Of a stretch of DNA of 41,142 bases, positions 17,151 to 32,719 are shown piece after piece; positions within the stretch are counted from its first letter, which is position 1, and each line of letters begins with the position of its first letter. Below the pieces are notes generated by a model. It was not told where the DNA came from. It made no database searches and saw only the letters and a program-made list of their open reading frames with translations. The DNA is from Hyphomicrobiales bacterium (GTDB taxonomy: Bacteria; Pseudomonadota; Alphaproteobacteria; Rhizobiales; Beijerinckiaceae). The position numbers were made by a program, and so were the translations under genes. Location: contig JAQGJH010000130.1 of assembly GCA_028290705.1 (NCBI GenBank), positions 1 to 41,142 of the forward strand, written 5' to 3'.

Positions 17151-17502
17151 GAGTCGACCCTAGGGCACGCCTTGCTGCGTCGCAAACACCCAGTCGGATT
17201 TTTTCTTTCCAAACTTCGCTGCATTGCAAACCCCTGCGGGCGGAATCGTCGTCGCGATGCGATGGCGTTGCACGATTACGTGGCGCAGCGCGCGATATTG
17301 GATCAACAAGTGCCGGAAATTTCCGCTCATCGGCCGGGCCGAACCATTCCGTCCCCGGCGAGAGCGCGCTAGCGTGTTGACCATCCAGTCAAGTCCGGTA
17401 CGATCCCTTCATCGGTCGTTCGGCTCTGATCCAAGCACACCCGTTGCCGGCCATATCAACCGGCAAGATCGCAATGCAGATCACGCCTTTGGAGGTAGAC
17501 GA
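17151..17502. promoter_or_regulatory. Divergent intergenic region between EamA and Bug receptor genes
   Basis: 352 bp without a supported gene. It holds the TTGAC-N6-GTCAA operator at 17377-17392 and the GGAGG ribosome site at 17491. A plausible plus-strand promoter overlaps the operator: TTGACC at 17377-17382, a 16-nt spacer, and TACGAT at 17399-17404. Nothing else stands out in 17160-17370. Confidence 0.5.
17377..17392. promoter_or_regulatory. RutR-like TetR operator, copy 1
   Basis: TTGACCATCCAGTCAA fits the shared palindrome TTGACYRNNYRGTCAA found four times in this window, always between genes. It overlaps the -35 and spacer of the likely promoter for the Bug receptor at 17503, so binding there should repress that gene. 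The binding protein is inferred to be the TetR regulator at 28916. Confidence 0.65.
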
Positions 17503-18588
17503 ATGTCTTTGACGAGTAGGATCGATAGTCGTTACGCAAGCCATTCCCGAGCCGTTCGCAGCCTGCGCCAGATGTGCATGATTGCGGGCATGGTCGGCGC
17601 GACATTTGCCGGCGCAATGCGCCCCGCTTCGGCGGATCCAATCGAAGAGTTCTACAAAGGCAAGACACTGCGGGTCATTGTCGGCTACGCGGTCGGCGGC
17701 GGCTATGACATCTATGGCAGGGTTTTCGCGGAGTTCTTCGGCAAGTACATCCCCGGCAATCCGACCATCATCGTGCAGAACATGCCCGGCGGCGGCAGTT
17801 TCGTGGCCGCGAAATACCTTTATGGCGCAGCCCCACGCGACGGGACGGTCTTCGGCAGCGTGTCGCAAACGCTGGCTCTCGACGCGGCCATGAACGAAGA
17901 TCCCAAAACCTTCGACGTGACCCGACTGAACTATCTCGGTCGTCTGCTCGACAACGTCGACGTCGGAAGCGGTCGGCCGGGAGCGAAGTTCAAGTCCTTC
18001 GAGGATGCACGCAAGCAGGAAATCGTCGTCGGGGCGACCGGAGGAGCATCGCCAGGCTTTCTCGTCCCCGCAGCATTGCAAAAATACGCCGGCGCCAAAT
18101 TCAAGATCGTGTCTGGTTACGGTGGCAGCGCGGATGTCTATCTCGCGGCGGAACGAAGCGAGGTGGAACTGATCGGCTCAGTCGGTCTGACCTTCATCAT
18201 GCAGCGCAGCCCGACATGGATCACTGAAAAGTCCGCACCCATCATCTACCAGACATCACTGAAGCGCCACCCGTTGATTCCCGACGTGCCGACCATCGCC
18301 GAACTCGGCCAAAGCCCCGAGGGCACGAGCGTTCTGCGGGCGATCGCCGCTTCGTCTGAAATCGGCCGCTCGATCATCACGACGCCGGGTGTTCCACCCG
18401 AGCGCCTGGCAGCACTGCGGACCGCATTCCAGAAGATGGTCAACGATCCGGCGTTTCTCGACGCCATGAAGAAACGCGACGTGCCGATTTTCGGGGCAAC
18501 CGGCGAAGAGATGGACGACGTGACGCGCGAAGTCATGAAGACACCGCAGACGGTGCTCGACGCCACAAAGGCGCTTCTGAAGAAGTAA
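17503..18588 (+). CDS. Bug/TctC-family periplasmic receptor in the catabolic cluster
   Basis: A 361-residue TTT-type solute receptor. The ATG at 17503 follows GGAGG; the longer open frame upstream crosses the promoter and operator and is rejected. The n-region is long (about 30 residues), then the signal peptide cleaves near PASA-D. Family marks are FYKGKTLRVIVGYAVGGGYDIYGR, IIVQNMPGGGSFVAAKYLY, APRDGTVFGSV and TTPGVPPERLAALRTAFQKM. No TctAB partner is present. The operator in front suggests that it imports, or senses, the compound handled by the cluster. It converges on the dihydroxyphthalate-decarboxylase-like gene. Confidence 0.92.
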   Translation: MSLTSRIDSRYASHSRAVRSLRQMCMIAGMVGATFAGAMRPASADPIEEFYKGKTLRVIVGYAVGGGYDIYGRVFAEFFGKYIPGNPTIIVQNMPGGGSFVAAKYLYGAAPRDGTVFGSVSQTLALDAAMNEDPKTFDVTRLNYLGRLLDNVDVGSGRPGAKFKSFEDARKQEIVVGATGGASPGFLVPAALQKYAGAKFKIVSGYGGSADVYLAAERSEVELIGSVGLTFIMQRSPTWITEKSAPIIYQTSLKRHPLIPDVPTIAELGQSPEGTSVLRAIAASSEIGRSIITTPGVPPERLAALRTAFQKMVNDPAFLDAMKKRDVPIFGATGEEMDDVTREVMKTPQTVLDATKALLKK

Positions 18589-18609
18589 GCCCACCACGAT
18601 GAAAGAACA

Positions 18610-18631: not shown

Positions 18632-18639
18632 AACGCGTT

Positions 18640-19632
18640 TCAGACCAACTGCCCTTCACCGAGCGGGATGTCCCGAAGCGTGCTCGGGGCAAAGAGTTCT
18701 TCCATTGTCAGCAGTCGATCGCTCAAGCCCTGCTCATAGGTATATTGCAGCAACGCGCCAAGCGACTCCTTGTTGGGCGTCAGGCCGTAGGGATACCAAT
18801 CCTGGCCGATGATCTTCTGCTCTTCCTCGATCATCGGCTGAAGCCACGCGAAAGACGCCTTGGGCGATCCCGTCTCCATCAGCAGCCTGTACGAGCGCTC
18901 CTTCGCGGCGCAGAACGCCTTGTAGAGGCTCATCGCCACCCAAGGATCGCGATCATAGATCTCTCGCTTGATGACCACGGTGTGCATGATCGGATAGATT
19001 TTCGTGCGCCGGTAGTAGTCCTTTTCAACCTCGGCATAGTTGGGAAACAACCGCCGCACTTTGGGCGAGCCCTTGCGAAACGAGATCGGATTGTTGGCCG
19101 TCATCATGAAGTCGATCTCGCCTCGCTCCAGCAGATCGCCGAGTTCCACGCGCGGATCTCCCTGCTGCAGGCGGATGTCTAGCGGCAGTTTGCGGCCAAG
19201 CCGGTCCGTCCGGCCCTGAATCCAATCGATCTGGTTGGGCATCACGCCGTATTCGTGCTGCAACAGCCCCCTCATATAGACGCCCGCCGTCATGGAATAT
19301 TCGGGAACTCCTCCACGCTTTCCGACGAGATCGCGCGGGTGCTCGATGCCTTTGTCGGTGTTGATGAAGAAGTATCCATGTCGGAAGACGCGTGACGGAA
19401 AGACCGGAATGGCAATGAAGGGAGAGTTACCCTGACTGACGAGCGTCGTGTAGTTGGAGAGCGACATTTCGGAGATGTCGAACTCTTGGTATTGCAGCAT
19501 TCGCCAGAATATCTCGGCGGGCTGCAGCGTCAGATACGTCAGATCGATGCCGTCCGGCCGTATGGAGCCGTCGATCAGCCCCTGCGTCCTGTCGTAAGGA
19601 CCGCAGGCCAGGGTAAGCCGCAGATTTGCCAT
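18640..19632 (-). CDS. 4,5-dihydroxyphthalate decarboxylase-like protein (Pht5 family)
   Basis: A 330-residue protein with a periplasmic-binding-protein-like fold but no signal peptide, so it is cytosolic. The start (LRLTLACGPYDRTQGLIDGSIRPDGIDLTYL), EFDISEMSLSNYTTLVSQG, AIPVFPSRVFRHGYFFIN and EIDFMMTANNP match proteins annotated as 4,5-dihydroxyphthalate decarboxylases. In phthalate degraders Pht5 turns 4,5-dihydroxyphthalate into protocatechuate; many homologues have no proven reaction. GGGAGAT precedes the ATG. The AspDH-like gene lies 36 bp upstream on the same strand, so they likely form an operon. A ring-carboxylate decarboxylase role is plausible, but an SBP-like sensor cannot be excluded. 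Confidence 0.75.
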   Translation of the reverse strand: MANLRLTLACGPYDRTQGLIDGSIRPDGIDLTYLTLQPAEIFWRMLQYQEFDISEMSLSNYTTLVSQGNSPFIAIPVFPSRVFRHGYFFINTDKGIEHPRDLVGKRGGVPEYSMTAGVYMRGLLQHEYGVMPNQIDWIQGRTDRLGRKLPLDIRLQQGDPRVELGDLLERGEIDFMMTANNPISFRKGSPKVRRLFPNYAEVEKDYYRRTKIYPIMHTVVIKREIYDRDPWVAMSLYKAFCAAKERSYRLLMETGSPKASFAWLQPMIEEEQKIIGQDWYPYGLTPNKESLGALLQYTYEQGLSDRLLTMEELFAPSTLRDIPLGEGQLV

Positions 19633-19668: not shown

Positions 19669-20487
19669 TCAGGCTGCGCGGGTTGGACGAGCCGTGAAGT
19701 AGGCGTCGATGGATTGCACCACGCTGAGTGCCGTCACCATCGATGTTTTCGGGTTTGCCGGCGAGGGCTCGTTGATGAATTCGAAGCGCGCCCGTCCGGC
19801 GGCGCTGCAGATCTCGATTTCATGCGTGTTGCCTGCCGCTTCTGGATCGACCACGACGCGAACCGAGATGCTTTGGCATGTGCCCTTGACGAGGGCCAAT
19901 GTCGCAGCGACGTTCAAATTGCGCGGGTAAAGTTGCGCGGCCTCCTGGACTGAACCGCGGAACAATTCCGTCGGCCTGGATTGTGCTTCTGCCCACTGCC
20001 CCCGCTGCTCGAGTTCATCGCGCCACGCCGCCGGTGGTTTGCGCGATGTGTAGATCACGGTTGTATTCGGGAGGGCCGCCACCGCCGCTAGGTAATCGAG
20101 CCCACCGATGGCGCCGGACGGTATGATGAGCCGCGCACCGCTGGCCTTTGCTTTCGCCGCAAGCACCTCACCGAGCGTCCCGTCGCCTGTGCTCTGGACA
20201 AGCGCACCCGCAGAGGCTGCCACCAGGCTGACGCCGGCGTCGAGGATGACAGGTCCGATCTGCTCGAGGGCGGCCTGGCCGGCAGCCTCGACGACGAGGT
20301 CCGGCTGCATCTCGAGCAGCGCTTCGACGCTTGCGACGTCTTGCACGTGTGAGAATCGTTCCTCACCATCGCTGGAAACTCGTCTCAGGACCAAGATCAT
20401 CGGGGGGTTCTCGCGCGCGGAAAGGCAGGACACGACGTCGCGGCCGATCGCTCCCAGGCCGATCAATCCGACGCGAATTTGCCTCAT
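19669..20487 (-). CDS. L-aspartate dehydrogenase-like protein (NadX family)
   Basis: A 272-residue NAD(P)-dependent dehydrogenase. The Rossmann motif GLGAIG is at residues 10-15; the family segment PSGAIGGLD is at 123-131, YTSRKPPAAW at 146-155, and YPRNLNVAATLAL near 187-199. H222 (THEIEI) matches the conserved histidine of the family. NadX interconverts aspartate and iminosuccinate/oxaloacetate, but no nadA or nadC lies nearby. The gene instead sits with a Pht5-like gene and is divergent from an aldehyde dehydrogenase. A catabolic role, releasing ammonia from an amino-acid product, is inferred. AAGGAAA precedes the ATG. Confidence 0.82.
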   Translation of the reverse strand: MRQIRVGLIGLGAIGRDVVSCLSARENPPMILVLRRVSSDGEERFSHVQDVASVEALLEMQPDLVVEAAGQAALEQIGPVILDAGVSLVAASAGALVQSTGDGTLGEVLAAKAKASGARLIIPSGAIGGLDYLAAVAALPNTTVIYTSRKPPAAWRDELEQRGQWAEAQSRPTELFRGSVQEAAQLYPRNLNVAATLALVKGTCQSISVRVVVDPEAAGNTHEIEICSAAGRARFEFINEPSPANPKTSMVTALSVVQSIDAYFTARPTRAA

Positions 20488-20645: not shown

Positions 20646-22073
20646 ATGTCTTCCTCAGAATATGTCTCTTTCATCGACGGTCGCAGTTGTCCAACCGGTC
20701 AACAGAGCTTTCCCCTGATCGCTCCCGAAAGCGGCGCGCGTCTCGGCGAACTTCGGGAGTCTGGCGCCGACGGAGTCGAGGCTGCGGTGAAGGCCGCGGC
20801 CGGGTGCTTTCGAATTCATCGCTTTGCCCCGGTCCACCAGCGCATCGCCTGGTTGAGTCTCTGCGCGAAGGCGATCGTCAGTGCGGCAGACGAGCTGGCG
20901 GCTCTGATTTGCGAGGACGTCGGCAAGCCCATTCGCGTGGCCAAGGTCGAGGTGAAACGCGGCATCGAATTCGTCGAGGCGTGTGCGGCAGCTCTTCCGC
21001 AGTTGAGCGGCGAGGTTCTCCCTCTGGACGCCGTCGTACCGGGAACGGGGCATATCGGCTTCACCCGTCATGTGCCCTATGGCGTCGTCGCCGGCATCAC
21101 GCCTTTCAACGCACCGATCAACCTGCTGATGCAGAAGGCCGCGCCCGCCATAGCGGCCGGCAATGCGTTCATCGGCAAGCCGGCTCCAGCAGGAACCAGG
21201 ACCGCACTTCGGCTGGCCGAGTTGTTTGCCCAAGCAGGTTTGCCAAACGGCATGTTCAACATCCTCACGGGCGACCGAGAAACCGCGGGTGCGCTCGCCG
21301 GCCATGCAGGTGTTGGAGTCGTATCCTTCACGGGTGGCACAGAGGGCGGGCAGGCGCTCGCCCGGCTGGCGGGCGCGAAAAAGTTCCTGGCGGAACTCGG
21401 ATCGAACGCGGCCAACATCGTTCTGGAGGACGGGCGTGTCGTGGAAGCCGCGCAGAAGATCGCGCCTGCGGCATTCGAGGCGAGCGGCCAACAATGCATA
21501 TCGGCTCAGCGCATCCTCGTGGCTCGCGGCATTCTGCCGGAGTTCGTTCAGGAGTTTGCCGCGTCGGCAAAGAAATTGCGGGTCGGCGCCGCGTCGGACC
21601 CGGCTACCGATGTCGGACCGATGGTGAGTGCGGCCGCGGCGGAGCGCGTCATGGATTTCTGCACCGATGCGGTCGAGCGAGGCGCTCATGCCATTCTCGC
21701 ACCCGAGCGACGGGGTGCGCTCGTAAGCCCCGGCATTTTTACGGATGTTCCTCGTGAGGCCCGTCTTTGGCGGGAAGAGGTTTTCGGGCCCATTGCCGTC
21801 GTGACGCCGTTCGACACCGTGGATGAGGCCCTGGGCCTCGCCAACGACTCGCCTTTCGGGCTGCAGGGAGCGGTGTTCACACAGTCCCTCGCGCACGCCA
21901 TGCGGTTCGCAGATGAATTCGACGTTGGCGCGCTGTGGATCAATGAAGCCAGCCGGTTCAGGCTCGACGCCTATCCGTTCGGGGGCATGAAGCAGAGCGG
22001 CGTCGGGCGTGAGGGCGTTCGTTATGCGATCGCCGAATATTCGCAGGTCAAGTTCATCGGCATCAAGCCATAA
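20646..22073 (+). CDS. NAD(P)-dependent aldehyde dehydrogenase
   Basis: A 475-residue cytosolic ALDH, normal family length. The oxyanion-hole Asn is in GITPFNAPIN, the general base E250 is in LAELGSNAANIV, the catalytic C284 is in SGQQCISAQR, and EEVFGPIAVV and FGGMKQSGVGREG complete the set. It oxidises an aldehyde to an acid, or to the CoA ester in the acylating subgroup. GGGAG lies before the ATG. It is divergent from the AspDH-like gene with a 158-bp gap that holds no copy of the cluster operator, so it may be regulated separately. The substrate is unknown; a semialdehyde from ring cleavage is a reasonable guess. Confidence 0.93.
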   Translation: MSSSEYVSFIDGRSCPTGQQSFPLIAPESGARLGELRESGADGVEAAVKAAAGCFRIHRFAPVHQRIAWLSLCAKAIVSAADELAALICEDVGKPIRVAKVEVKRGIEFVEACAAALPQLSGEVLPLDAVVPGTGHIGFTRHVPYGVVAGITPFNAPINLLMQKAAPAIAAGNAFIGKPAPAGTRTALRLAELFAQAGLPNGMFNILTGDRETAGALAGHAGVGVVSFTGGTEGGQALARLAGAKKFLAELGSNAANIVLEDGRVVEAAQKIAPAAFEASGQQCISAQRILVARGILPEFVQEFAASAKKLRVGAASDPATDVGPMVSAAAAERVMDFCTDAVERGAHAILAPERRGALVSPGIFTDVPREARLWREEVFGPIAVVTPFDTVDEALGLANDSPFGLQGAVFTQSLAHAMRFADEFDVGALWINEASRFRLDAYPFGGMKQSGVGREGVRYAIAEYSQVKFIGIKP

Positions 22074-22109: not shown

Positions 22110-23204
22110 TCACTTCAACTTTGAGAGATCGACGCTTTTCGCCTCCGAGATGACGGCCGCGCGATCGTAATCATTGATGGCGTCGATGAACTGGTTCGTG
22201 ACGACTTTGTCCGGTTCCACCGCCGCCGGCATGATCTTTTGATCGACCATGAATTGAACGAGCCGCTTCCAGTCATCAGGAAACAACTGGCCATGCTTGT
22301 CGCCCGCCTTGGGCGTGTTCCAGATTTTCATGCGACCCTGGTTCACCATGACGCCGGCCGCCAAAGCCTTCGCGGGGTCAGGATCCTGTACGCGCGCTTC
22401 CGGATAGGCCTTCCAGGTGATCAGAACGGCTGCTTCGGGATTGGCCATGGTGAAGTCATAGCCTTTGGCCACAGCTCGTGCGACGCCGGTCAGCATTTTC
22501 GGATTCTTGGCAATCGTCTCAGGCTTTGCCAGCAGGCCGACGTCCGGAAGAGTCGCGAGACTCTCGGGCGAAGGAATGATCCGCAGGTCGAGACCGGCGG
22601 TGATGAACTTGGCCAGCGCTGCATCCCAGTAGACGACGCCGTCCACCATCTTCTGCTTCACGGAGGTAATCGCCTGCGCGCCCATGCCGATGGGAAGGAA
22701 CGCCACGTCCTTCTGCGGATCGAGGCCGGCGTTGTTGGCGAAGGCACGGCCGAAAGTGGTGCCGGCGCTTCCCATGGACTGCACGCCCAGCTTCTTGCCC
22801 TTGAGATCCGCCATCGTCTTGATCGGGCTGTCCGGCAACACTGCGACCGACCAGATGTTGGCATAATACAGGGAGTAGAAGTAGCGGATGTCGAGCTTGC
22901 CGGACTGGATTCCGACGAGCGCCTCACCGGGCGACGCGGCGCCGATCTCTCCATTCCCGGCCGAGATCTGGATGGCGGATTCGTTCGAGCCGCCGACGGC
23001 GAGAAGCGTGACGTCGTATCCTTCCTTTTCGAAATAGCCGAGTTGCTTGGCGACAACGAAGGGCGAGAAGGCCTCGTCGATGGCGCGGACTGGAATCAAA
23101 AGCCGGACCTTCTCGAGCGCAACGGCTGAGCTTATCCCGCCCGCGATCGACAGCGTCATCGCGATCGCCGCCGCCAGGCCATTGCGCAAAGTTGCTCGCT
23201 TCAT
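22110..23204 (-). CDS. SsuA/NMT1-like ABC solute-binding protein
   Basis: A 364-residue periplasmic receptor for the ABC transporter encoded with it. The ATG at 23204 follows AAGGAG and starts a signal peptide cleaved near AVALE (about residue 32). After it come VRLLIPVRAIDEAFSPFVVAKQLGYFEKEGYDVTLLAVGGSNESAIQISAGNGEIGAASPGEALVGIQ and SPIKTMADLKGKKLGVQSMGS, the usual NMT1/SsuA order. Relatives take up sulfonates, nitrate, pyrimidines (ThiY), aromatic acids and others. It lies 19 bp after the permease gene and is last in the operon. The ligand is probably the compound degraded by the cluster. Confidence 0.92.
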   Translation of the reverse strand: MKRATLRNGLAAAIAMTLSIAGGISSAVALEKVRLLIPVRAIDEAFSPFVVAKQLGYFEKEGYDVTLLAVGGSNESAIQISAGNGEIGAASPGEALVGIQSGKLDIRYFYSLYYANIWSVAVLPDSPIKTMADLKGKKLGVQSMGSAGTTFGRAFANNAGLDPQKDVAFLPIGMGAQAITSVKQKMVDGVVYWDAALAKFITAGLDLRIIPSPESLATLPDVGLLAKPETIAKNPKMLTGVARAVAKGYDFTMANPEAAVLITWKAYPEARVQDPDPAKALAAGVMVNQGRMKIWNTPKAGDKHGQLFPDDWKRLVQFMVDQKIMPAAVEPDKVVTNQFIDAINDYDRAAVISEAKSVDLSKLK

Positions 23205-23223
23205 GTTGAACTCCTTACCAGTG

Positions 23224-24009
23224 TCAGGTGACGATGGGCGTTTGCTCCCGACGGATCCAGAATACATATCGGCGTGCGCCGGCACGCACGATGGTGTGCA
23301 AGCTGATGCCGATGAGAGAGAGAAAGATCAGGACCGCGAAAACACCCGGGACATCGAGGCTGAAGTTCAGCGCGGTGATGAGATACCCTAGTCCCTGCTG
23401 CGCTCCGACGAATTCGCCGACGACTGCGCCAATGACGGCCATGACCGCGGCGATTTCCAGGCCTGCGAAAATGAGCACGAGCGCGGAGGGAAGTCGAAGT
23501 CGCAGCAGAATCTGCATCCGCGTCGCCCCGAACGCCTTCATCATGTCGAGTTGGTCCCGGTCGGTCGAATGGAAGCCCGCCATCACGCTGACGAGAACCG
23601 GGAAGAAGCAGACGAGCGCCGTGATCACGATTTTTGACGCTACCCCATAGCCGAACCAGATGATGAACAGAGGCGCGATGGCGATCTTCGGCACGGTCTG
23701 CAGCGCGACGACGTAAGGATAGACCAACCGCTCGACGGCTGGCACCAACGAGATCACCGCGCCCGATACCAATCCGGCAACGACGCCGAGACCAAAGCCC
23801 GACAGGACGGCCGTGAGGGTCGCGGCGAGGTGCGGCCAGATCGTGCCGGTCAGAATCAGATCGACGAAGCGCACGAGGATGGCACTCGGAGCCGGAAGGA
23901 TGAGGGAAGAAATGCCGACTAGGCGGCACGAGAGTTCCCAAACCAGCAGCACCGTCACGATGACGCCGAGGGATTGCAGCCGGTGGGCGATGTTGACGCG
24001 CGCCTTCAT
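23224..24009 (-). CDS. SsuC/TauC-like ABC permease
   Basis: A 261-residue inner-membrane permease with about six helices of the BPD-transport fold. The ATPase-contact (EAA) loop is MMKAFGATRMQILLRLRLPSALVLIFAGL, and the segment VVGEFVGAQQGLGYLI is characteristic of the SsuC/TauC group. The start overlaps the end of the ATPase gene by 4 bp (ATGA), showing coupling. It pairs with the ATPase upstream and the receptor downstream in one three-gene operon on the minus strand. Confidence 0.94.
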   Translation of the reverse strand: MKARVNIAHRLQSLGVIVTVLLVWELSCRLVGISSLILPAPSAILVRFVDLILTGTIWPHLAATLTAVLSGFGLGVVAGLVSGAVISLVPAVERLVYPYVVALQTVPKIAIAPLFIIWFGYGVASKIVITALVCFFPVLVSVMAGFHSTDRDQLDMMKAFGATRMQILLRLRLPSALVLIFAGLEIAAVMAVIGAVVGEFVGAQQGLGYLITALNFSLDVPGVFAVLIFLSLIGISLHTIVRAGARRYVFWIRREQTPIVT

Positions 24010-24830
24010 AGGGACACGGCCGAGTGATGCTCGGTCCCGAACATGGTGCGAATCTGGTCGCAGAGTTCGCCAAATCTCGGAAGGCCCATGGTCCTCAGGC
24101 TTCGCGGTCGAGGAATGTCAATGGGAACCACGGCTGAAATTCTGCCGGGGCGCGGCGACATGACGACCACCCGGTCGCCCAGAAGCACGGCTTCCGGAAT
24201 GGAGTGCGTAATGAAGACGACCGTCTTCCGCTCCTCCGACCAGACACGCATCAATTCCATGTTCAGCATCTCGCGGGTCATGGCATCCAATGCACCGAAG
24301 GGTTCGTCCATCAAAAGGATTTTGGGATCTCGCATGAGCGCGCGGCAGATGGAGACGCGCTGCTGCATGCCGCCCGAAAGTTCAAAGGGATATTTTTGAG
24401 CGAAATCGCCGAGGCCCATGAAGGAAAGCAGCTTGCGTGCCCGCTGCGTCGACTGCTCGGATTTGTCTCCTTTCAGATGCAGGGGAAGCAGGACGTTGGC
24501 CAGAACGTTGTTCCAAGGCAGAAGCGTTGCCTGTTGGAAAACCACGCCGACATCGTGCCTCGGCCCCGCGAGGGGCTGACCGGAGATGGAAGCAGAGCCG
24601 GAACTCGCAACATCCAGCCCCGCGAGAATCCGTAGAAGCGTGGTCTTGCCGCAGCCGCTCGGGCCGACCACCGAGATGAACTCATGATCGGCAACCTCGA
24701 GGGATACATCCGACAAGGCATGAACGGTCTCGCCGGAGCGCGTCGCGAAAAGCTTTTCGAGATGGCTGATGCGGATCAGCGGGGCCGCCCCTTCGGAGGC
24801 CGGCGACTGCATCGACCTCGGATGCGGCAT
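24006..24830 (-). CDS. SsuB/TauB-like ABC ATPase
   Basis: Cytosolic ATPase of the same importer, about 274 residues from the ATG at 24830. Walker A is GPSGCGKTT, the Q-loop QQATLLPW, the signature LSGGMQQR, Walker B ILLMDEPFGALD and the H-loop FITHSIPEA; all are intact. The start is uncertain: a GTG at 24872 and an ATG at 24812 are also in frame and none has an ideal ribosome site, but the domain begins only after these options. It is the first gene of the ATPase-permease-receptor operon. The operator at 24921 and a possible promoter at 24936-24907 precede it. Confidence 0.92.
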   Translation of the reverse strand: MPHPRSMQSPASEGAAPLIRISHLEKLFATRSGETVHALSDVSLEVADHEFISVVGPSGCGKTTLLRILAGLDVASSGSASISGQPLAGPRHDVGVVFQQATLLPWNNVLANVLLPLHLKGDKSEQSTQRARKLLSFMGLGDFAQKYPFELSGGMQQRVSICRALMRDPKILLMDEPFGALDAMTREMLNMELMRVWSEERKTVVFITHSIPEAVLLGDRVVVMSPRPGRISAVVPIDIPRPRSLRTMGLPRFGELCDQIRTMFGTEHHSAVSL

Positions 24831-25192: not shown

Positions 25193-26044
25193 ATGAAGCT
25201 TGCACCGTTTCAGTATGCTGCACCCAAAACTGTCGCCGAGGCCGTGGCGCTGCTCGGATCTTGCGATGCGAAAGCGCTATCGGGAGGTCAGAGCCTGATG
25301 CCAATCCTCGCTTTCCGACTTGCCGCGCCCGAAATGCTGGTCGACCTGAAATACGTGGAGGGTCTGGACCGCATCGCCATCGATAAGGATGGCGTGACAC
25401 TCGGGGCGAAGGTTCGGTGGTGCGACATAGAAGCGGACGAACGTCTTGCGACGGCGCATCCCCTGCTGGCCGAGGCGATCAGACATGTGGCGCATTATCA
25501 GATCCGGAATCGCGGCACGGTCGGCGGATCTCTCGCGCATGCCGATCCTGCCGCCGAGATGCCGGGCATCGCCGTGACGTGCGACGCCGTCCTGACGCTC
25601 GCGGGACCGACGGGTGAACGGCAGGTCGCCGCAGCGGGTTTCTTCGAAGGAGCGCTTCAGACGAGTCTCGCGGCGGACGAACTCATCACGCAAGTGCATT
25701 TGCCCGCGTGGCCGGCTGCGCGCCGCTGGGGATTTCGCGAGTTTGCGCGACGCCGCGGCGATTTCGCGCTGGCAGGCATTGCCGCCTTCTACGACGTCGA
25801 TCCACGGGGCCGCGCGGTCGATCCGCATATTGGCGTCATTGGCGCATCGGATCGTCCGCGCCGGCTCGCGCGCGCCGAAGCCGCCCTCTCGGGCAAGGTC
25901 GTCGACTCCGCGAGCATCGCAGAGGCAGCAGCGGCCGCCAGCGCCGAGGTCGATCCGCCTTCAGACATCCATGCGCCGGCGGATTATCGTCGCGCGCTCG
26001 TAGCAACCATGGTCGAGCGCGCGCTTGCGCATGCCGCCCGTTGA
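25193..26044 (+). CDS. Molybdenum hydroxylase FAD-binding (medium) subunit, CoxM type
   Basis: A 283-residue flavoprotein subunit of a xanthine dehydrogenase/CO dehydrogenase-family hydroxylase. The FAD contacts are SGGQSLMPI (residues 30-38) and NRGTVGGSLAHADPAAE (106-122); a CODH-type C-terminal domain follows. It passes electrons from the iron-sulfur subunit to the final acceptor. The ATG at 25193 fits the family N-terminus (MKLAPFQYAAPKTVAEAV); the open frame before it is rejected. It is followed by the iron-sulfur gene after 14 bp and then by the Mo subunit, the order medium-small-large. Confidence 0.93.
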   Translation: MKLAPFQYAAPKTVAEAVALLGSCDAKALSGGQSLMPILAFRLAAPEMLVDLKYVEGLDRIAIDKDGVTLGAKVRWCDIEADERLATAHPLLAEAIRHVAHYQIRNRGTVGGSLAHADPAAEMPGIAVTCDAVLTLAGPTGERQVAAAGFFEGALQTSLAADELITQVHLPAWPAARRWGFREFARRRGDFALAGIAAFYDVDPRGRAVDPHIGVIGASDRPRRLARAEAALSGKVVDSASIAEAAAAASAEVDPPSDIHAPADYRRALVATMVERALAHAAR

Positions 26045-26058
26045 TCAGAGCCGGTGAC

Positions 26059-26535
26059 ATGATGAAGATCGAATTCGAAGTGAACGGCAAGCCGGTGAGC
26101 GTGGACGTCGATCCGCGTCTGAGCCTTGCGGATTGCCTGCGGTCGGAGCTTGGCTTGACCGGAACGCATCTGGGCTGCGAGCACGGCGTCTGCGGCGCCT
26201 GCACGGTCATCGTCAATGGCGCGGCCGTTCGATCCTGCCTGATGCTTGCGGTCCAGGCGTCGGGCGATTCTGTTGTGACAGTCGAGGGACTTTCCAACGA
26301 CGAGGCGTTGACCCCGCTACAGGCCTCGTTCCGCAAGCATCACGCGCTTCAGTGCGGGTTCTGCACTCCCGGAATGGTGACGACCGCGCATGCTCTCCTG
26401 ACGCATGAGCCGGATTGCGATGAAGACCGCGTGCGTGACGTGCTCTCGGGCAACATCTGCCGCTGCACAGGTTACGTTCCGATCGTCGAGGCGGTGCTCG
26501 ATGCCCGCGCGGCTTACGGGAGCAAGGGAGAATGA
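26059..26535 (+). CDS. Molybdenum hydroxylase [2Fe-2S] (small) subunit, CoxS type
   Basis: A 158-residue protein with both iron-sulfur centres of the family. The plant-ferredoxin-like cluster uses C40, C45, C48 and C60 (GCEHGVCGACTVIVNGAAVRSC in two adjoining parts). The second cluster uses C99, C102, C134 and C136 (QCGFCTPG and CRCTGY). It moves electrons from the molybdenum site to FAD. It overlaps the Mo subunit gene by 4 bp (ATGA), so translation is coupled. ATG codons at 26059 and 26062 are adjacent; the first is used here. Confidence 0.95.
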   Translation: MMKIEFEVNGKPVSVDVDPRLSLADCLRSELGLTGTHLGCEHGVCGACTVIVNGAAVRSCLMLAVQASGDSVVTVEGLSNDEALTPLQASFRKHHALQCGFCTPGMVTTAHALLTHEPDCDEDRVRDVLSGNICRCTGYVPIVEAVLDARAAYGSKGE

Positions 26536-28829
26536 GCGTGCGGCCGGCAAATTCGTTCATCGGGAGCCCCATCGAGCGCGTCGAGGATCTCCGCTTCCTC
26601 CGCGGACGCGGCACATATGTGTCGGATTTGAACCGCCCGAACCAGTTGCATGCGGTGCTGCTTCGGAGTCCGGAGGCGCACGGCCGTTTGCGCGGCATCG
26701 ATTGCACGCGCGCGCTCGCGCTCCCGGGCGTTCACGCCGTGATCAAGGCCTCGGATCTGGGTGCGCGCGTTCCGCACATCCCCCTTCGCCTCCAGCCACT
26801 GCCGCAACTCGAGCCCTTCCACCAGCCGATGCTGGCTTTCGACAAGGTACGGTACGTCGGGGAGCCTCTTGCCGTCGTCATCGCCGATAGCGCCGGGATT
26901 GCCGAAGATGCCCTCGAGTTGATCGACGTGAGCATCGATCCCCTTCCGGCCATCACCGACAAGTCCAGTGCGGATGCGGCTGCGGCCGTCCTGTTCGAAA
27001 GCCACGGTTCCAACCGGGCTATGGTCTGGACCGCAACGCGTGGGGATGCGGATGCGGCTTTCGCATCGGCCGATCTGGTCCTGAAGGAATCATTTCGTGT
27101 GCAGCGGCATGCCGCCATGTTCATGGAGCCTCGCGGCTTCGTGGCCGAGTGGGACGTGGAGTCGGAACGGCTCACGGTCTGGGGCGCCGCCAAGGTGGCG
27201 TGGACCAACCGCCGCATTCTCGCAACCGCCATGGAGATACCCGAGACCTCGGTCGAAATGATCGAGGTGGACGTCGGAGGCGGGTTCGGGTCGCGCGGGG
27301 AGTTCTACCCGGAAGACTATCTCATTCCGGCGGCTTCCCGCATCGTCGGGCGACCGATCAAATGGACGGAGGATCGCCGCGAGCATCTGATGTGCGCCAA
27401 TCACGCCCGTGACATCGAGTGCGACGTTGAAATGGCGGTGGCGAAGGATGGTCGGATCCTGGGCCTGCGGGGCATGGCTTACGCCGACATCGGCGCATAC
27501 TTCCGGACCAACGGTTCGGTCGGGCCGCGCAACGTCGCGCAGTTCATGTCCGGCCCCTACAAGATCGAGAACATTCATCTGCAGACGACGCAGCTGACGA
27601 CGAACAAGACTCCGAGTGGCACATATCGCGGGCCGGGTCGGTTCGAAACGGATTTCATTCGCGAGCGCATGATTGATCTAGCGGCGAAAAAGCTTGGGAT
27701 CGACGGGGTCGCCATGCGACGGCTCAATCTCGTGGCCGATGCGGACATGCCGTATCCCCTTGCCTCGATCACCCCCTACGACAGTTCGACGGAGCTCGAC
27801 AGCGGCGACTATCACCACGTTTTCGATCTTTGCCTCGAAAAGTTCGGATGGAACGAGAAGTCTGCTTTGCAGGGAAAGTTGATCGATGGCCGCTATCACG
27901 GTCTCTCGGTCGGCAGTTTCATCGAAGGCGGCGCCGCCGGGCCCAAGGAAGACGCACGGCTCGTGCTCGAGACCGACGGCTCGCTGACGGTCTACCTCGG
28001 CTCTTCAGCCGTAGGCCAGGGTCTGCAGACGATCATGACGCAGATCGCGGCCGATGCGATGGAGTTTCCGTTCGAGCGCATTCGCGTGCTGCACGGCTCC
28101 ACCTCGCACGTCACCGAAGGGTTCGGCTCCTACCATTCGCGCTCGACCGTGATGGGCGGGTCCGCGATTTTGCTGGCGGCCGACAAGCTCAAAGCGATGA
28201 TCCGGGAGAGCGCGGCATCTAAGCTCGGATGCGCGGCCTCAGAGGTCCAGATCGATGGCGAGACGGTCGTGACCAAGGGGGCCAGCCATCCCCTGGCGGG
28301 CCTCGCCGATAAGCCGCTCGAGGCCGAGGCTACGTTCTTCAACAAGAAATACACCTATGCTTATGGCACGCAGGCGGCGCATGTCAGCGTCGACCCGGGC
28401 ACGGGCCACGTCCAGGTCCACGATTATCTCTCGGTCGAAGACGTCGGCCGGATGATCAATCCCCTGACTCTGCACGGCCAGGCAATCGGCGGCATCGTTC
28501 AGGGCCTTGGCGGCACCTTCCTCGAGCACCTGATCTATGATGAACATGGTCAGCTCCTCACCGGCTCGCTCGCGGATTACCTCATGCCGACGGCCAGTGA
28601 CTTTCCGGTGATCCGTTCGATCACACTCGAGTTGAAGCCCTCGCCCAACAATCCTTTAGGTGCTAAGGGAGCCGGCGAAGGTGGCATTATCCCGGTGGGC
28701 GGGATCATCGCCAATGCGGTGGCGAATGCGCTTTCGCATCTCGACGTGCAGCCGATGGAGCTTCCCCTGTCGCCGCCGCGGGTGTGGCGGCTCATCCGCG
28801 ACGCGCAAGAGGCGAAACGCAGCATGTAG
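26532..28829 (+). CDS. Molybdenum hydroxylase Mo-cofactor (large) subunit A
   Basis: A 765-residue catalytic subunit. It hydroxylates a carbon, typically next to a ring nitrogen or an aldehyde, using water-derived oxygen. Cofactor-binding signatures are VGGGFGSRGEFYPED, SGTYRGPGRFETDF and SSAVGQGLQT; the catalytic glutamate is E716 in GAKGAGEGG. It lacks the AYRCSFR loop that carries the active-site Cys of true CO dehydrogenases, so CO is not the likely substrate. AAGGGAG precedes the ATG. It is the last gene of the FAD-FeS-Mo operon, and a close paralogue is encoded at 30327. The substrate is unknown; a heteroaromatic is favoured by the cluster context. Confidence 0.94.
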   Translation: MSVRPANSFIGSPIERVEDLRFLRGRGTYVSDLNRPNQLHAVLLRSPEAHGRLRGIDCTRALALPGVHAVIKASDLGARVPHIPLRLQPLPQLEPFHQPMLAFDKVRYVGEPLAVVIADSAGIAEDALELIDVSIDPLPAITDKSSADAAAAVLFESHGSNRAMVWTATRGDADAAFASADLVLKESFRVQRHAAMFMEPRGFVAEWDVESERLTVWGAAKVAWTNRRILATAMEIPETSVEMIEVDVGGGFGSRGEFYPEDYLIPAASRIVGRPIKWTEDRREHLMCANHARDIECDVEMAVAKDGRILGLRGMAYADIGAYFRTNGSVGPRNVAQFMSGPYKIENIHLQTTQLTTNKTPSGTYRGPGRFETDFIRERMIDLAAKKLGIDGVAMRRLNLVADADMPYPLASITPYDSSTELDSGDYHHVFDLCLEKFGWNEKSALQGKLIDGRYHGLSVGSFIEGGAAGPKEDARLVLETDGSLTVYLGSSAVGQGLQTIMTQIAADAMEFPFERIRVLHGSTSHVTEGFGSYHSRSTVMGGSAILLAADKLKAMIRESAASKLGCAASEVQIDGETVVTKGASHPLAGLADKPLEAEATFFNKKYTYAYGTQAAHVSVDPGTGHVQVHDYLSVEDVGRMINPLTLHGQAIGGIVQGLGGTFLEHLIYDEHGQLLTGSLADYLMPTASDFPVIRSITLELKPSPNNPLGAKGAGEGGIIPVGGIIANAVANALSHLDVQPMELPLSPPRVWRLIRDAQEAKRSM

Positions 28830-28915: not shown

Positions 28916-29632
28916 ATGGCAAGCCGCAGCCGCGATCCAGCACGAACGCGCGAGAAAATCCTCACGCACGCCACGACGGAGTTCGCCAAGAAGGGCTTCG
29001 ACGGGGCGCGCGTGGACTCGATCGCCGTCCGCTGCCGGCTCAGCAAGAACATGCTGTACTATTATTTCAAGTCGAAGGAGGGTCTGTTCGTGGCCGTCCT
29101 CGAGCGAATGTACGAGAAGCTGCGCAGCCAGCAGAAAGACTTGACCGTACGCGCCAGCGATCCGGTCACGGCGCTCGAACAACTCGTGCAGCACACGTTC
29201 ACGGCGCTTCTGGACAATCCGGAAGCCATTCGGCTGATGAACGAGGAGAACCGCCACAAGGGCCGTCACATCCGGCAGTCGCGGCGCATGCGCGACCTCT
29301 ACAATCCGCTGGTCGACACGATCCGCTTCATTCTGGAGCGAGGCCGAGACGACGGCGTCTTTCGCGCCGGGATCGACCCTGCCTTCGTGTATCTCTCGCT
29401 CTCGTCGCTTTGCTACCACTACCTCTCGAACCAATACACGTTGGAGGTTGCGCTCGGCGTCGATCTCGGTTCGGAACAGGCGCGCGAAAACTGGCTGTCG
29501 CACATCACCGAACTCGTGATGATGTTTTGCACATCGGGAGCCCCCGCACGGGATCTTCCCCTGCTGGAAGCGAAGCCGGGGCGCATCACGAAGCGCGCGA
29601 GCGTCAAGAAGCCGGCGCGTCAGAGCGCGTGA
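28916..29632 (+). CDS. TetR-family regulator, RutR-like recognition helix
   Basis: A 238-residue repressor. The N-terminal helix-turn-helix covers about residues 8-58; the recognition helix reads LSKNMLYYYFKSKEGLF, close in pattern to RutR (VSKTNLLYYFPSKEALY). The C-terminal ligand domain is helical, with a long basic tail (RITKRASVKKPARQ) not usual in RutR. The start at 28916 follows GAAGG; a start 6 codons upstream is possible. It lies 86 bp after Mo subunit A on the same strand, and an operator lies 50 bp after its stop. It is the only TetR protein in the window, so it is the likely reader of the four TTGAC-N6-GTCAA sites. No operator copy was found before its own gene. Confidence 0.88.
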   Translation: MASRSRDPARTREKILTHATTEFAKKGFDGARVDSIAVRCRLSKNMLYYYFKSKEGLFVAVLERMYEKLRSQQKDLTVRASDPVTALEQLVQHTFTALLDNPEAIRLMNEENRHKGRHIRQSRRMRDLYNPLVDTIRFILERGRDDGVFRAGIDPAFVYLSLSSLCYHYLSNQYTLEVALGVDLGSEQARENWLSHITELVMMFCTSGAPARDLPLLEAKPGRITKRASVKKPARQSA

Positions 29633-29681
29633 GGCGCTATCCTGGAACGACTCCGGTGTAAGCAGTCCTCTCATTGTCTTG

Positions 29682-29697
29682 TTGACTGCCTGGTCAA
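29682..29697. promoter_or_regulatory. RutR-like TetR operator, copy 3 (best palindrome)
   Basis: TTGACTGCCTGGTCAA sits inside 9-bp perfect arms (CTTGTTGAC / GTCAACAAG, 29679-29700). It overlaps a possible promoter for the cupin gene: TTGACT at 29682-29687, an 18-nt spacer and TAATTT at 29706-29711, ending 34 bp before the ATG at 29746. Confidence 0.75.
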
Positions 29698-29745
29698 CAA
29701 GCGGCTAATTTACATCATTCCAATCTCATTCAGGAGCCATGCGCC

Positions 29746-30273
29746 ATGGCAGTCGCCCGTCATCCCCGCCCGCCGGAACTCGTTGGCGTTCCGCTCGAAG
29801 ACATCATGAACCGCTATGTCGGCCGCTTTCGTGATCGCAAGCCGGACTGGGCCGCCTTCGAAGACGCGAAGATCGAAGGCTACAAGCGCGCGCAGCACCG
29901 CTTCATCGGAGCTGGCGGATCCGGCAAGCACGGAGATCCCTCCGTCATCCCGGCCGGCAACTTCACGCTGTCGATCATGTTCGTCAATCCCGGCCAGGGA
30001 AATGCGCCTCATACGCATGAGGTCGAGGAATGCTTCTTCGTCCTGCAGGGCTTCCTCGACGTCTTCGTCGAAGATGAAGATGGACGGCGCCTCACGACGC
30101 GTCTGGGACCATGGGAGTGCATTTCCTGTCCGGCCGGCGTGATCCACGGCTATGACAACAACAGTCTCGAGCCCGTCTATTTCCAGGTGATGCTCGGTCG
30201 CGGAAAGCCCGACACGATGGGCTATGCCGACGACCGGCTGTTCCAGAGCCGCGATGCGCATCTGCGCGACTGA
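29746..30273 (+). CDS. Single-domain cupin protein
   Basis: A 175-residue cytosolic cupin. Motif 1 reads GNAPHTHEVEECFFVLQG with metal ligands H89, H91 and E95; motif 2 reads PWECISCPAGVIHGYDN with H134. The full His-His-Glu-His metal set is present. The N-terminal 60 residues (RYVGRFRDRKPDWAAFEDAKIEGYKRAQHRFIGAGG) are not a domain I recognise. CAGGAG precedes the ATG by 9 bp. It is transcribed alone between the operator and a strong terminator, so it is probably a direct target of the regulator. It could be an oxygenase, an isomerase or a hydrolase-type cupin; the sequence does not decide. Confidence 0.85.
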   Translation: MAVARHPRPPELVGVPLEDIMNRYVGRFRDRKPDWAAFEDAKIEGYKRAQHRFIGAGGSGKHGDPSVIPAGNFTLSIMFVNPGQGNAPHTHEVEECFFVLQGFLDVFVEDEDGRRLTTRLGPWECISCPAGVIHGYDNNSLEPVYFQVMLGRGKPDTMGYADDRLFQSRDAHLRD

Positions 30274-30293
30274 CGGTTCTCGAGCCTGCCCCG

Positions 30294-30321
30294 GCGGCGG
30301 CTTCGGCCGCCGCTTTTTTTT
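30294..30321 (+). terminator. Rho-independent terminator after the cupin gene
   Basis: An 8-bp GC stem (GCGGCGGC / GCCGCCGC) with a UUCG tetraloop is followed by eight T (30314-30321). It is the clearest intrinsic terminator in the window, ending 5 bp before the stop of the convergent Mo subunit B. Confidence 0.9.
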
Positions 30322-30326: not shown

Positions 30327-32606
30327 TCAGACGGCCTGGCGCTTCGCCTCGATCATGGCCCAGACCCGCGAAGGCGACAGCGGCAATTCGTTGGGTTGCA
30401 CGTCAAAGCTCGCCAGCGCCGCCGCCACCGCATTGGCGATCACGCCGCCCACGGGAATGATGCCGCCCTCGCCCGCGCCCTTCGCGCCGAGGGGATTTGT
30501 CGGCGAAGGCGCGAGTTCCAGCGCCACGACCTTGATGTGGGGGAAGTCGGTCGCGGTCGGAAGCAGGTAGTCGGCGAACGAGCCCGCAACCATCTGCCCG
30601 CTGTCGTCGTAGACGAACTGCTCGAGCAGCGTTCCACCAAGTCCCTGCACGATGGCGCCGACGCATTGTCCGTGCAGCGTGTGAGGATTGATGATCCGCC
30701 CGACGTCCTCGACCGCCACATAGGAGCAGATCTCGACGCCGCCCGTCTTGATGTCGACCGCGACGTGAGCGGCATGCGCACCATAGCTGTACGTGCGCTT
30801 GGGCGACGAGAACGAGCCGTCGAACGATGGCAGTTCTTCGGCAAACTCGCCAAAGCCAAAGCTCGCGCCGGCAGGCCCGATGGCGTGACCGTCGGCCAGG
30901 CGCACCTCGGAGTCTGCGCATGCCAGGCGTGTCGCTGCCGCCGACACGATCGCGGCCTTCAGTTTGTTGGCCGCGTCGAGCAGCGCGGAGCCGCCCATCA
31001 CGACGGATCTGGAACTGAAAGAGCCGACGCCATCCTTGACCAGATTGGTCGAGCCATGCTGAACCGGGCGGATGGACGAAAGCGGAAGCCCCAGGGCGTC
31101 TCCCGCGATTTGAGCCACGACGGTTTCGAGCCCCTGCCCGATCGCGGATGAGCCGGTGAAGACCGACACTGTTCCGTCGCTCTCGAGCCGAATGCGCACA
31201 CTCTCGCGTCCAGACCCCGCACCTTCGACATAGCATCCGACCGCGAGCCCATGGTAGCGCCCGTCGACGTGCCTTCCCTGAAATGCGATCTTGTCGCTCC
31301 ATTGAATTTCTTCAAGGCAGCGGTCCAACGTGGTTTCATAGTTTCCGCTGTCGGTTTCGCTCGAGACCTTTCCGACAGTGGGCATGGACCACGGCATGTC
31401 ACTCTCGCGGATGAGATTGCGCCGGCGGAATTCGATCTGGTCCAATCCAAGGTCGGCGGCGACGAGATCGAACAGACGTTCGCGAAAGAAGTCGGATTCG
31501 TATCGGCCGGGGCCGCGGTAGGTTCCGCTCGGCGTCTTGTTGGTGACGAGCAGCGTGACGTCGCTGCGCACGTTCTCGATCCGGTAGGGACCCGGCAGCA
31601 CCTGGGCGATATTGCGGGCCGGCGTCGACCCCGTGGTGCGCAGATAGGCCCCGCAATGAACCGCTGAATGCGCGCGGAGCCCAAGAATGCGTGCATTCTT
31701 GTCGCAGGCGATCTCGATCTCGCATTCGGACTCGCGTGCATGGTTCGTGGCGAGCAAATTCTCGCGCCGGTCTTCCACCCACTTCACCGGCCGACCGAAG
31801 CGGCGGGCGCTGTAGGGGACGAGAAAGTCCTCCGGATAGAATTCGCCGCGAACGCCGAAGCCGCCTCCGACGTCGTTTTCGACCATGACCACCTGGTCCT
31901 CGGAAAGCCCCAGATGAGCCGCGACCGCTGCGCGATTGTGAAACGGTACTTTGGCGGCGCCATGCACCGTCATGATTCGCGCAGCATCGTCCCATTCCGC
32001 CAGAAGTCCGCGGGTTTCCATCGGCACTGCCGAATGGCGATGAACCTTGAATTTTTCCTTTCGGGTATAGAAGGCGTTCGCGAAGGCCGCGTCCACGTCC
32101 CCCCTGATCCCCGAAATCGTGGCGGGCGAGTTGGTGCGATTTTCCTCGAACAGCAGGACATCTCCCGCCAAGGCTTCGTCCCGCGAAAGGACCGCAGGGA
32201 GAGATTCGATTTCGACGGCGATGAAGTCGAGCGCGTCCTCGGCTTGCGCAGCGGTTTCCGCGAGAATGAGGGCGAGGGGTTCGCCGACGTAGCGGACTTT
32301 GCGATGCGCGATCACCGGTTGCTCGAAGGCCTTGAATTCCGGCAACGGATCGAGCCGCAGTGCAATCTTCGGCACGTCGGGAGCGAGGTCGGCCCCCGTT
32401 ACGACGGCGTGAACGCCCGGCCGGGAAAGGGCATGCGTCGTGTCGATGGCGACGATCCGGCCGTGCGCGACCGAGCTTCTCAGGACCACTGCATGCAGAA
32501 GATTGTCACGAGTGAGATCGCCGACGTAGATTCCCTGCCCGCGCAGAAAGCGCATGTCCTCGCGTCGTTCGATCGGAGCGCCAATCAGCGCATTCACGGC
32601 CTTCAT
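30327..32606 (-). CDS. Molybdenum hydroxylase Mo-cofactor (large) subunit B
   Basis: A 759-residue catalytic subunit, a clear paralogue of the subunit at 26532 along the whole length. It has the same signatures: VGGGFGVRGEFYPED, SGTYRGPGRYESDF, SSAIGQGLET and GAKGAGEGGIIPVGG with catalytic E713. It also lacks the CO-dehydrogenase Cys loop. The ATG at 32606 begins MKAVNALIGAPIERREDMRFLRG, matching subunit A's start; a frame start 8 codons upstream is less likely. No FAD or iron-sulfur genes accompany it, so it may use those at 25193 and 26059. It is divergent from the amidohydrolase across the operator at 32704. Confidence 0.93.
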   Translation of the reverse strand: MKAVNALIGAPIERREDMRFLRGQGIYVGDLTRDNLLHAVVLRSSVAHGRIVAIDTTHALSRPGVHAVVTGADLAPDVPKIALRLDPLPEFKAFEQPVIAHRKVRYVGEPLALILAETAAQAEDALDFIAVEIESLPAVLSRDEALAGDVLLFEENRTNSPATISGIRGDVDAAFANAFYTRKEKFKVHRHSAVPMETRGLLAEWDDAARIMTVHGAAKVPFHNRAAVAAHLGLSEDQVVMVENDVGGGFGVRGEFYPEDFLVPYSARRFGRPVKWVEDRRENLLATNHARESECEIEIACDKNARILGLRAHSAVHCGAYLRTTGSTPARNIAQVLPGPYRIENVRSDVTLLVTNKTPSGTYRGPGRYESDFFRERLFDLVAADLGLDQIEFRRRNLIRESDMPWSMPTVGKVSSETDSGNYETTLDRCLEEIQWSDKIAFQGRHVDGRYHGLAVGCYVEGAGSGRESVRIRLESDGTVSVFTGSSAIGQGLETVVAQIAGDALGLPLSSIRPVQHGSTNLVKDGVGSFSSRSVVMGGSALLDAANKLKAAIVSAAATRLACADSEVRLADGHAIGPAGASFGFGEFAEELPSFDGSFSSPKRTYSYGAHAAHVAVDIKTGGVEICSYVAVEDVGRIINPHTLHGQCVGAIVQGLGGTLLEQFVYDDSGQMVAGSFADYLLPTATDFPHIKVVALELAPSPTNPLGAKGAGEGGIIPVGGVIANAVAAALASFDVQPNELPLSPSRVWAMIEAKRQAV

Positions 32607-32703
32607 CCCACAACCTCGAAGATCAATCATCCCAAGGTTGCAGGCTCGCGCGCGAGGCCCCGACTGTCAACCGGCGACCTCGAGCGCATGACGGAAGAGG
32701 GTG

Positions 32704-32719
32704 TTGACCGGACGGTCAA
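32704..32719. promoter_or_regulatory. RutR-like TetR operator, copy 4
   Basis: TTGACCGGACGGTCAA, with arms extending to TGTTGAC/GTCAACA (32702-32721), lies between the divergent Mo subunit B (start 32606) and amidohydrolase (start 32820) genes and could control both. No convincing -10 box at a matching distance was seen on either strand. Confidence 0.7.

Follow-up and report, generated by a model that had tools for sequence, protein, structure and literature searches.

RutR, a uracil-sensing repressor of the TetR fold known from Escherichia coli and rhizobia (TIGR03613), controls genes of catabolism and uptake, its recognition helix starts with S-K, and its operator is TTGACCA-NN-TGGTCAA. All these features are shared, with essentially the same operator word, by the locus described here, an uptake-and-oxidation gene cluster with a TetR gene of its own in a 41,142-nt stretch of DNA (the window) from a soil bacterium of the Hyphomicrobiales (Beijerinckiaceae; GCA_028290705.1, contig JAQGJH010000130.1, positions 1-41,142). 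The window operator has the arms of the RutR operator, with YR beside the arms instead of strictly CA. In contrast to RutR, the local TetR has the C-terminal domain TetR_C_29 and not TetR_C_3, scores 62 bits with the RutR model as against a cut-off of 368, belongs to a separate clade and lacks the HYADF stretch, and none of the window proteins that were profiled (32 in all; NCBIfam 10, Pfam 28) is the product of a rut or pyd gene.

The best solved relative of the local TetR by sequence (2.8e-22) as well as by fold (25% identity) is DIP1788 of Corynebacterium diphtheriae (3npi), which is described merely as a TetR family regulatory protein and is not known to have a defined operator. Resorcinol is the product of gamma-resorcylate decarboxylase, and this decarboxylase is the closest solved relative of the cluster amidohydrolase (9e-70). 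The link leads to RolR, the resorcinol repressor of Corynebacterium glutamicum and likewise a TetR regulator of aromatic catabolism, but the DNA-binding motif given for RolR, IxxxAxxGxGxFYxxF, is unlike that of the local TetR (PMC3086911). By name, RolR was absent from the best 60 sequence matches and the best 50 fold matches of the local TetR. The catabolic riboflavin/lumichrome operon (Lum proteins) resembles the cluster in its enzymes, a cupin and a hydroxylase of the xanthine-oxidase type, which act there on an N-heteroaromatic compound, whereas the words 'aspartate', 'TetR' and 'aldehyde dehydrogenase' occur nowhere in the main text of the report (PMC12746152), and the likeness does not imply the same pathway. 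A related cupin (41%) lies on a Paracoccus plasmid near genes for an aspartate dehydrogenase (AspDH), an aldehyde dehydrogenase (ALDH), a ring-hydroxylating dioxygenase and a thiamine pyrophosphate (TPP) enzyme. Among plasmid homologues, solved structures and literature no characterised equivalent of the cluster was found, nor was a description of this regulon, or the RutR consensus as a literal string, in the open-licence literature.

Very likely the cluster, whose substrate is probably aromatic, is under the control of a local TetR repressor of its own, which reads a RutR-type word; for the specific reading that a dimer of the local TetR_C_29 protein binds five 20-bp operators and represses the uptake-and-oxidation genes we estimate a probability of roughly 87 per cent. 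Computation gave the sites with their specificity and conservation, the family of the protein and the association between helix and operator. The exact motif TTGAC-N6-GTCAA occurs four times in the window, at 17377 (TTGACCATCCAGTCAA), 24921 (TTGACCAGACAGTCAA), 29682 (TTGACTGCCTGGTCAA) and 32704 (TTGACCGGACGGTCAA), which agrees in position and sequence with a preliminary description of this DNA. The chance expectation given there, 0.04 exact sites per window, was confirmed, and none of 100 dinucleotide shuffles gave four. In the whole source genome (3.02 Mb; 3,021,310 bases in 148 contigs, 74% complete) all four exact sites lie inside the window, with two matches for the control, the same motif written backwards. 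Equal frequency elsewhere in the genome, a possibility raised in advance, was thus not observed. With one mismatch to the YR form eight more matches were found genome-wide, seven of them outside the window, versus six for the control; such matches, taken by themselves, do not exceed chance, and weight is placed only on exact sites or on matrix scores.

A matrix built from 32 sites of relatives, with the window and its nearest relative left out of training, found exactly five sites in the window: the four exact ones at 27-30 bits and a fifth at 20687 (TTGTCCAACCGGTCAA), which has one mismatch and scored 20.8 bits. The next best position reached 3.2 bits, and the maximum in 30 random first-order sequences of window length (41 kb) was 11.7 bits. 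The earlier statement that there are no other copies therefore holds for the exact form, which occurs nowhere else in window or genome, but it overlooked the inexact fifth site. Similarly, the operator had been taken as a 16-mer at four sites; the sites are real, but there are five of them and the predicted operator, TGTTGACYRNNYRGTCAACA, is about 20 bp long, because the TG/CA flanks, which played no part in site selection, are conserved as well (74% for T and 74% for G on the outer side of each arm, among the 44 distinct exact sites of window and relatives).

All four exact sites are intergenic, in front of the Bug receptor, the ABC importer, the cupin and the pair formed by the second molybdenum (Mo) hydroxylase large subunit (MoL_B) and the amidohydrolase, as had been described, and the measured distances bear this out. 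Site 1 is 110 bp upstream of the Bug receptor start, which was hand-corrected to the ATG at 17503. Site 2 is 48 bp from the start of the ABC ATPase open reading frame (ORF) and 256 bp upstream of 25193, the likely start of the FAD subunit gene (MoFAD) and of the Mo operon, placed where orthologues align. Site 3 is 48 bp upstream of the cupin and 49 bp past the tetR stop, in keeping with the 50 bp given before, and site 4 lies between MoL_B, at a distance of 73 bp, and the divergent amidohydrolase, at 100 bp. A comparison of five genomes, that of the window among them, showed the fifth site at the same aldehyde dehydrogenase codons every time; TGT, GGT and CAA are used throughout, while an inner residue changes between T, I and A. 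Over eleven of the window's cluster genes, these codons encode 14, 12 and 23% of the occurrences of their residues. As evidence for an operator their rarity has moderate weight only, because the five aldehyde dehydrogenase genes use TGT (2-3 of 7-9) and CAA (4-7 of 14-16) more often. Relatives from Bradyrhizobium and Rhodopseudomonas have an ordinary intergenic operator at the same gene pair in place of the intragenic site.

The protein scan with the local TetR returned 20 loci, of which 15 orthologues (59-90% identity, all Hyphomicrobiales) were kept; loci L056-L060, fragments or distant TetRs, were excluded from the counts. Exact sites were found in all 15 genomes with an orthologue, 40 sites as against 10 for the backwards control. 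Of the 44 exact sites in these relatives and the source genome, 41 are at cluster genes, one probably is and two are not. By script, 39 of the 44 were assigned to the stretch between 450 bp upstream and 100 bp downstream of the start of a window-gene homologue. Three of these belong to the Bug receptor (window site 1, one in G297 and the second in G299); the script linked them to the adjacent DMT gene or to a receptor query that was too long, and by hand they lie about 110-185 bp upstream of the receptor. Two further exact sites (G298, G299) are about 65-75 bp upstream of the Bug receptor after start correction by hand, and one in G298 is 57 bp past the tetR match at a contig end, where in relatives the cupin comes next. 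Altogether, the orthologous Bug receptor is preceded by a site in five relative genomes (exact in three, inexact in two).

Where clusters have been rearranged, the sites are still found with the same targets. In the Bradyrhizobium clusters the cupin, AspDH/ALDH, the amidohydrolase/Mo operon and the ABC importer each have a site of their own, and in G299, where MoL_B has moved to another contig, it has its own site 103 bp upstream. No exact site was found in the neighbouring paralogous Mo/ABC clusters of L050-L053 and L055 (large subunits 30-39% identity). When eight cupin upstream regions were aligned, the invariant columns were TTGAC, GTCAA, two other positions and the ATG; these regions were hand-chosen and all have exact sites, those left out including G299, G302, G303 and G305. 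In an order-wide set of 397 genomes, source genome included, no cupin orthologue (E up to 1e-40) was found outside the source genome (1/397). The divergent cupin/MoFAD region of G310 has two operators, and G308 and G309 each have a weak palindrome 203 bp upstream of tetR (18.6 and 19.0 bits). In Desulfotruncus arcticus, a locus entered through a distant TetR match, two TTGAC-N6-GTCAA palindromes lie 35 bp apart (L058:7393 and L058:7428), both missing the YR form by one base.

The local TetR scored 138.2 bits with PF17938 (TetR_C_29; gathering threshold 26.2) and 49 with TetR_N (24), as against 62.4 with TIGR03613, 52.2 with the other RutR model, PRK15008 (cut-off 230), and 20.4 with TetR_C_3 (YcdC-like), under the cut-off of 25; a RutR from G051, the positive control for the RutR model, scored 420. 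In a 91-row tree with long branches, midpoint-rooted for drawing only, the 16 orthologues formed one clade (100/100) and the four RutR rows another (100/100). The HYADF stretch is present in E. coli RutR, in a G305 homologue and in both halves of the G051 protein, which is a fusion; it is absent from the local TetR and its orthologues, which have SLCYHYLSN at about the same place. To judge by these assignments, the protein is a TetR_C_29 regulator and not RutR. The term 'RutR-like', used for the palindrome in the preliminary description, suits the DNA word, and the S-K at the helix start is shared, but the protein fails the RutR models, domain and clade. Its AlphaFold2 model (mean pLDDT 79.8) is an all-helical TetR fold with an N-terminal helix-turn-helix, and in a PDB fold search 3npi was nearest, followed by RutR structures (ranks 2 and 4-8). 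The recognition helix SKNMLYYYF is identical in all 16 orthologues. In RutR the recognition helix starts with K52, and comparison with QacR, no structure of RutR on DNA being known, suggests that this residue would contact a guanine (PMC10891134). Its equivalent by eye in the local TetR is K44, which is invariant.

The layout xxRAC-YR-NN-YR-GTYxx was searched within 600 bp of the own tetR at 71 paralogue loci of 36-45% identity (the 29 others of 30 loci, 40 further listed matches and two from G310), picked by similarity to the local TetR and not each checked for PF17938. Palindromes with AAC arms (GTAACCANNTGGTTAC and TCAACCANNTGGTTGA types) were found at 32 loci, GAC arms at one and none at 38; shuffles gave 2.3 loci and other central gaps 0-7. 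Where the helix starts with N (57 loci), A arms were found at 30, G arms at none and no palindrome at 27 (one locus also had a C-armed match); both Q loci had A arms, the single T locus had no palindrome, and the 11 S loci are taken up below. All 32 A-armed loci thus have N or Q where the local TetR has S. It looks as if the palindrome layout were the TetR_C_29 family's own and the arm base went with the helix residue. Together with the sites in 15 of 15 genomes, their following of genes after rearrangement and the lack of RutR in 16 genomes (below), the shared layout at 32 of 71 paralogues gives strong in silico support to the earlier proposal of a local TetR that coordinates uptake and oxidation.

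A clean helix rule has points against it. The 16 orthologues form a single clade, the lone G-armed S paralogue joins that clade weakly (86/80, long branch), and some operators in the orthologues' own clusters are AAC-armed, e.g. TTAACTGAATAGTTAA in L051. If only paralogues are counted, a single S locus carries the S/N-G/A association (p 0.03), and a p of 2e-12 was obtained with the 16 orthologues hand-entered and counted as independent, so that it is not a fair probability. Tentatively, and with somewhat more doubt than trust, we suggest that position 43 could switch the operator (N/Q to AAC, S to GAC), that the S clade might thereby read the RutR word, so that two unrelated catabolic regulons in the order would share a code with possible cross-talk, and that the clade would also place an operator in the coding start of one target.

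Several observations weigh against the five-operator reading. Of the 11 paralogues with S at the helix start, one has G arms and ten have no palindrome, and in those ten no shared alternative palindrome was recognised by eye. The relatives were chosen by TetR similarity, so that 15 of 15 means that sites accompany the TetR and not the converse. In four of these genomes the exact count equals that of the control (G302 3/3; G308, G309 and G311 1/1), though the sites are at cluster genes. Six of the 16 orthologues lack a same-layout site within 600 bp of tetR and one more has an AAC-armed one only, although all those without a tetR-proximal site carry sites elsewhere in the cluster. The cupin operators of G299 (18.4 bits), G302, G303 and G305 are inexact, and a weak match, AACTGTCTAGTCAGTCAACT (11.0 bits), recurs away from the cupin at L052:7869, L053:7871 and L055:7996. 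Two exact sites in G305 are off cluster genes, one within a hydrolase ORF and one 285 bp before a tannase-family gene. A promoter scan of the window showed no excess (3 found versus 2.8 expected; one of the three begins with the left arm of site 1), and the source genome is only 74% complete.

Binding, repression, overlap with a -35 element, autoregulation and an inducer are predicted parts of the mechanism. A TetR dimer would bind the palindrome TGTTGACYRNNYRGTCAACA at the five operators and repress all cluster targets, i.e. the Bug receptor, ABC importer, Mo-hydroxylase operon, second Mo subunit, amidohydrolase, cupin and aldehyde dehydrogenase. At the cupin promoter the left arm TTGACY would double as -35, and a repressor bound there would keep RNA polymerase out; by eye, most of the eight genomes have a TA-rich hexamer 16-18 bp after TTGACY (TATGAT in L052, L053 and L055). 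The operator in the start codons of the aldehyde dehydrogenase would form a roadblock. Placed at the end of the Mo operon, tetR would limit its own synthesis, and operator 2 may set the TetR level because tetR follows this operon on the same strand (gap 86 bp). The repressor would come off the DNA when a substrate or intermediate of the cluster binds to its C-terminal domain. Alternatively, the local TetR might bind the same sites and activate, or do both. Nothing computed fixes the sign, and the site-to-gene-start distances by script range from within the gene to about 390 bp, but most TetR proteins act as repressors, the cupin operator overlaps a -35-like hexamer 16-18 bp before a -10-like one as judged by eye, and another operator lies inside a coding start, which makes activation or a dual role improbable.

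It could also be that a true RutR encoded elsewhere in the genome reads the sites, the local TetR having another role. The word is truly RutR's, although here it appears to be read by a TetR_C_29 protein, and the likeness noted in the preliminary description was borne out beyond the arms: the exact 20-mer occurs in two of the 397 order genomes, in the source genome (two sites) and in G051 (one), and the latter copy (31.8 bits) lies between a genuine, tandem-fused RutR (420 bits versus 368) and a divergent operon of reductive-pyrimidine type for the omega-aminotransferase AptA, MMSDH, an allantoate-amidohydrolase-like protein, by context the ureidopropionase, and dihydropyrimidinase. In the E. 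coli rut region (14 kb) the best matrix match is in the rutA-rutR intergenic region (19.5 bits), and rutR could be missing from the incomplete source genome. Against this, no RutR over cut-off was found in the source genome or the 15 relatives (16/16), the G305 homologue, below cut-off at 294 bits, has no such site in the surrounding 16 kb (best 5.3 bits), and the best RutR-model match in the source genome is the local TetR itself (next among the matches listed 39 bits). A RutR orthologue as reader was ruled out by model scores, by its absence from the 16 genomes and by the tree, and we give a RutR elsewhere very little probability. The G051 fusion itself (L113:109-1383 / L115:7167-8441; 424 aa, two TetR_N and two TetR_C_3 stretches) looks unusual. 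A second, weaker match in the G051 pyrimidine cluster (L115:11680, 21.4 bits), within the allantoate-amidohydrolase-like ORF, is possibly another intragenic site.

Equally small is the chance that some other local or global factor reads the palindrome. The scan for DNA-binding families covered the 32 profiled proteins rather than every window ORF, and the G310 cluster contains a second TetR_C_29-like protein. However, no DNA-binding family besides the local TetR was found among the 32 proteins, neither an isolated receiver domain nor the GGDEF/EAL proteins towards the ends of the window counting as DNA-binding matches; the second TetR was found in G310 only among the cluster regions examined, and the helix-operator association points to the local TetR. 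An FNR/CRP-type site was ruled out by half-site spacing, the N6 between TTGAC arms being unlike that of the FNR/CRP motif. The second TetR of G310 (L106:4283-4894, 41% identity, SK helix) lies between the cupin and the aldehyde dehydrogenase. That the palindromes arose by chance or from a repeat element is hardly credible: nothing favours it for the exact sites, and only the one-mismatch matches outside the window, which are at control level, speak for it, whereas shuffles, genome-wide count and matrix scan ruled out a chance origin, the arms are kept across divergent flanks in the eight chosen upstream regions, and the central bases differ between copies, unlike in a mobile repeat.

By the computed signs this is a conserved five-site local TetR regulon, ordinary in kind and unusually well supported; unusual is the overlap of its operator code with that of RutR. 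Its features are listed in Table 1.

Table 1. Predicted operators and genes of the cluster (window coordinates)
Feature	Position	Strand	Context or role	Score or basis
Operator 1, TGTTGACCATCCAGTCAAGT	17375..17394		before Bug/TctC receptor	27.1 bits
Operator 2, TCTTGACCAGACAGTCAACA	24919..24938		between divergent ABC importer and Mo-hydroxylase operon	28.9 bits
Operator 3, TGTTGACTGCCTGGTCAACA	29680..29699		before cupin	30.0 bits
Operator 4, TGTTGACCGGACGGTCAACA	32702..32721		between divergent MoL_B and amidohydrolase	28.8 bits
Operator 5, AGTTGTCCAACCGGTCAACA	20685..20704		within aldehyde dehydrogenase codons 14-20 (SCPTGQQ)	20.8 bits
TetR_C_29 regulator, 238 aa, recognition helix LSKNMLYYYF	28916..29632	+	presumed reader of five operators	
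Bug/TctC-type solute receptor	17503..18588	+	target	PF03401
Phosphonate-binding-like protein	18640..19632	-		PF12974, 22.8 bits, under its cut-off of 27
Aspartate-dehydrogenase family protein	19669..20487	-	target in relatives	Pfam/NCBIfam, relatives' sites
Aldehyde dehydrogenase	20646..22073	+	target	
NMT1-type ABC importer: binding protein, permease, ATPase	22110..24872	-	target	
Molybdenum hydroxylase operon: FAD subunit, 2Fe-2S subunit, large subunit A	25193..28829	+	target	
Cupin	29746..30273	+	target	
Terminator-like hairpin with T run	30293..30314	.	between convergent cupin and MoL_B	
Second molybdenum hydroxylase large subunit B, MoL_B	30327..32630	-	target	
Amidohydrolase_2	32820..33773	+	target	closest solved relative gamma-resorcylate decarboxylase
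MFS transporter	33849..35072	+	3' of amidohydrolase	

The closest solved relative of the Mo large subunit is 6-hydroxypseudooxynicotine dehydrogenase (2.5e-143), while the cupin gave two weak matches only to solved structures. An aromatic or N-heteroaromatic acid as substrate would fit the enzymes, but this is a guess. Pyrimidine as ligand, offered in the preliminary description, was not supported, since HYADF is absent and no pyrimidine-pathway gene was named among the profiled window proteins. The off-cluster operator of G305 (L104:7898, 29.7 bits), which precedes a gene of the tannase/feruloyl-esterase family, is possibly a hint at the substrate. MoL_B has no FAD or Fe-S partner genes adjoining and may use those of the first Mo hydroxylase. 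The product of 18640..19632 is presumably 4,5-dihydroxyphthalate decarboxylase-like. The terminator-hairpin scan as a whole found 11 hairpins versus 12.4 in shuffles. Towards its ends the window contains genes for an FTR1 iron permease (9163-10011), an EAL-domain protein (854-1735) and GGDEF proteins (36505-38145 and 40141-41064).

The cluster occurs in metagenome-assembled genomes of Beijerinckiaceae and other Hyphomicrobiales, in Bradyrhizobium and in Rhodopseudomonas, and for it an operator and a regulator are now ready; a reporter made of the TetR and its operator, tried with inducers, could name the substrate directly. For RutR-like boxes in Rhizobiales, the box sequence alone is insufficient to assign RutR, and within the large TetR subfamily a simple, testable rule linking helix and operator is offered.

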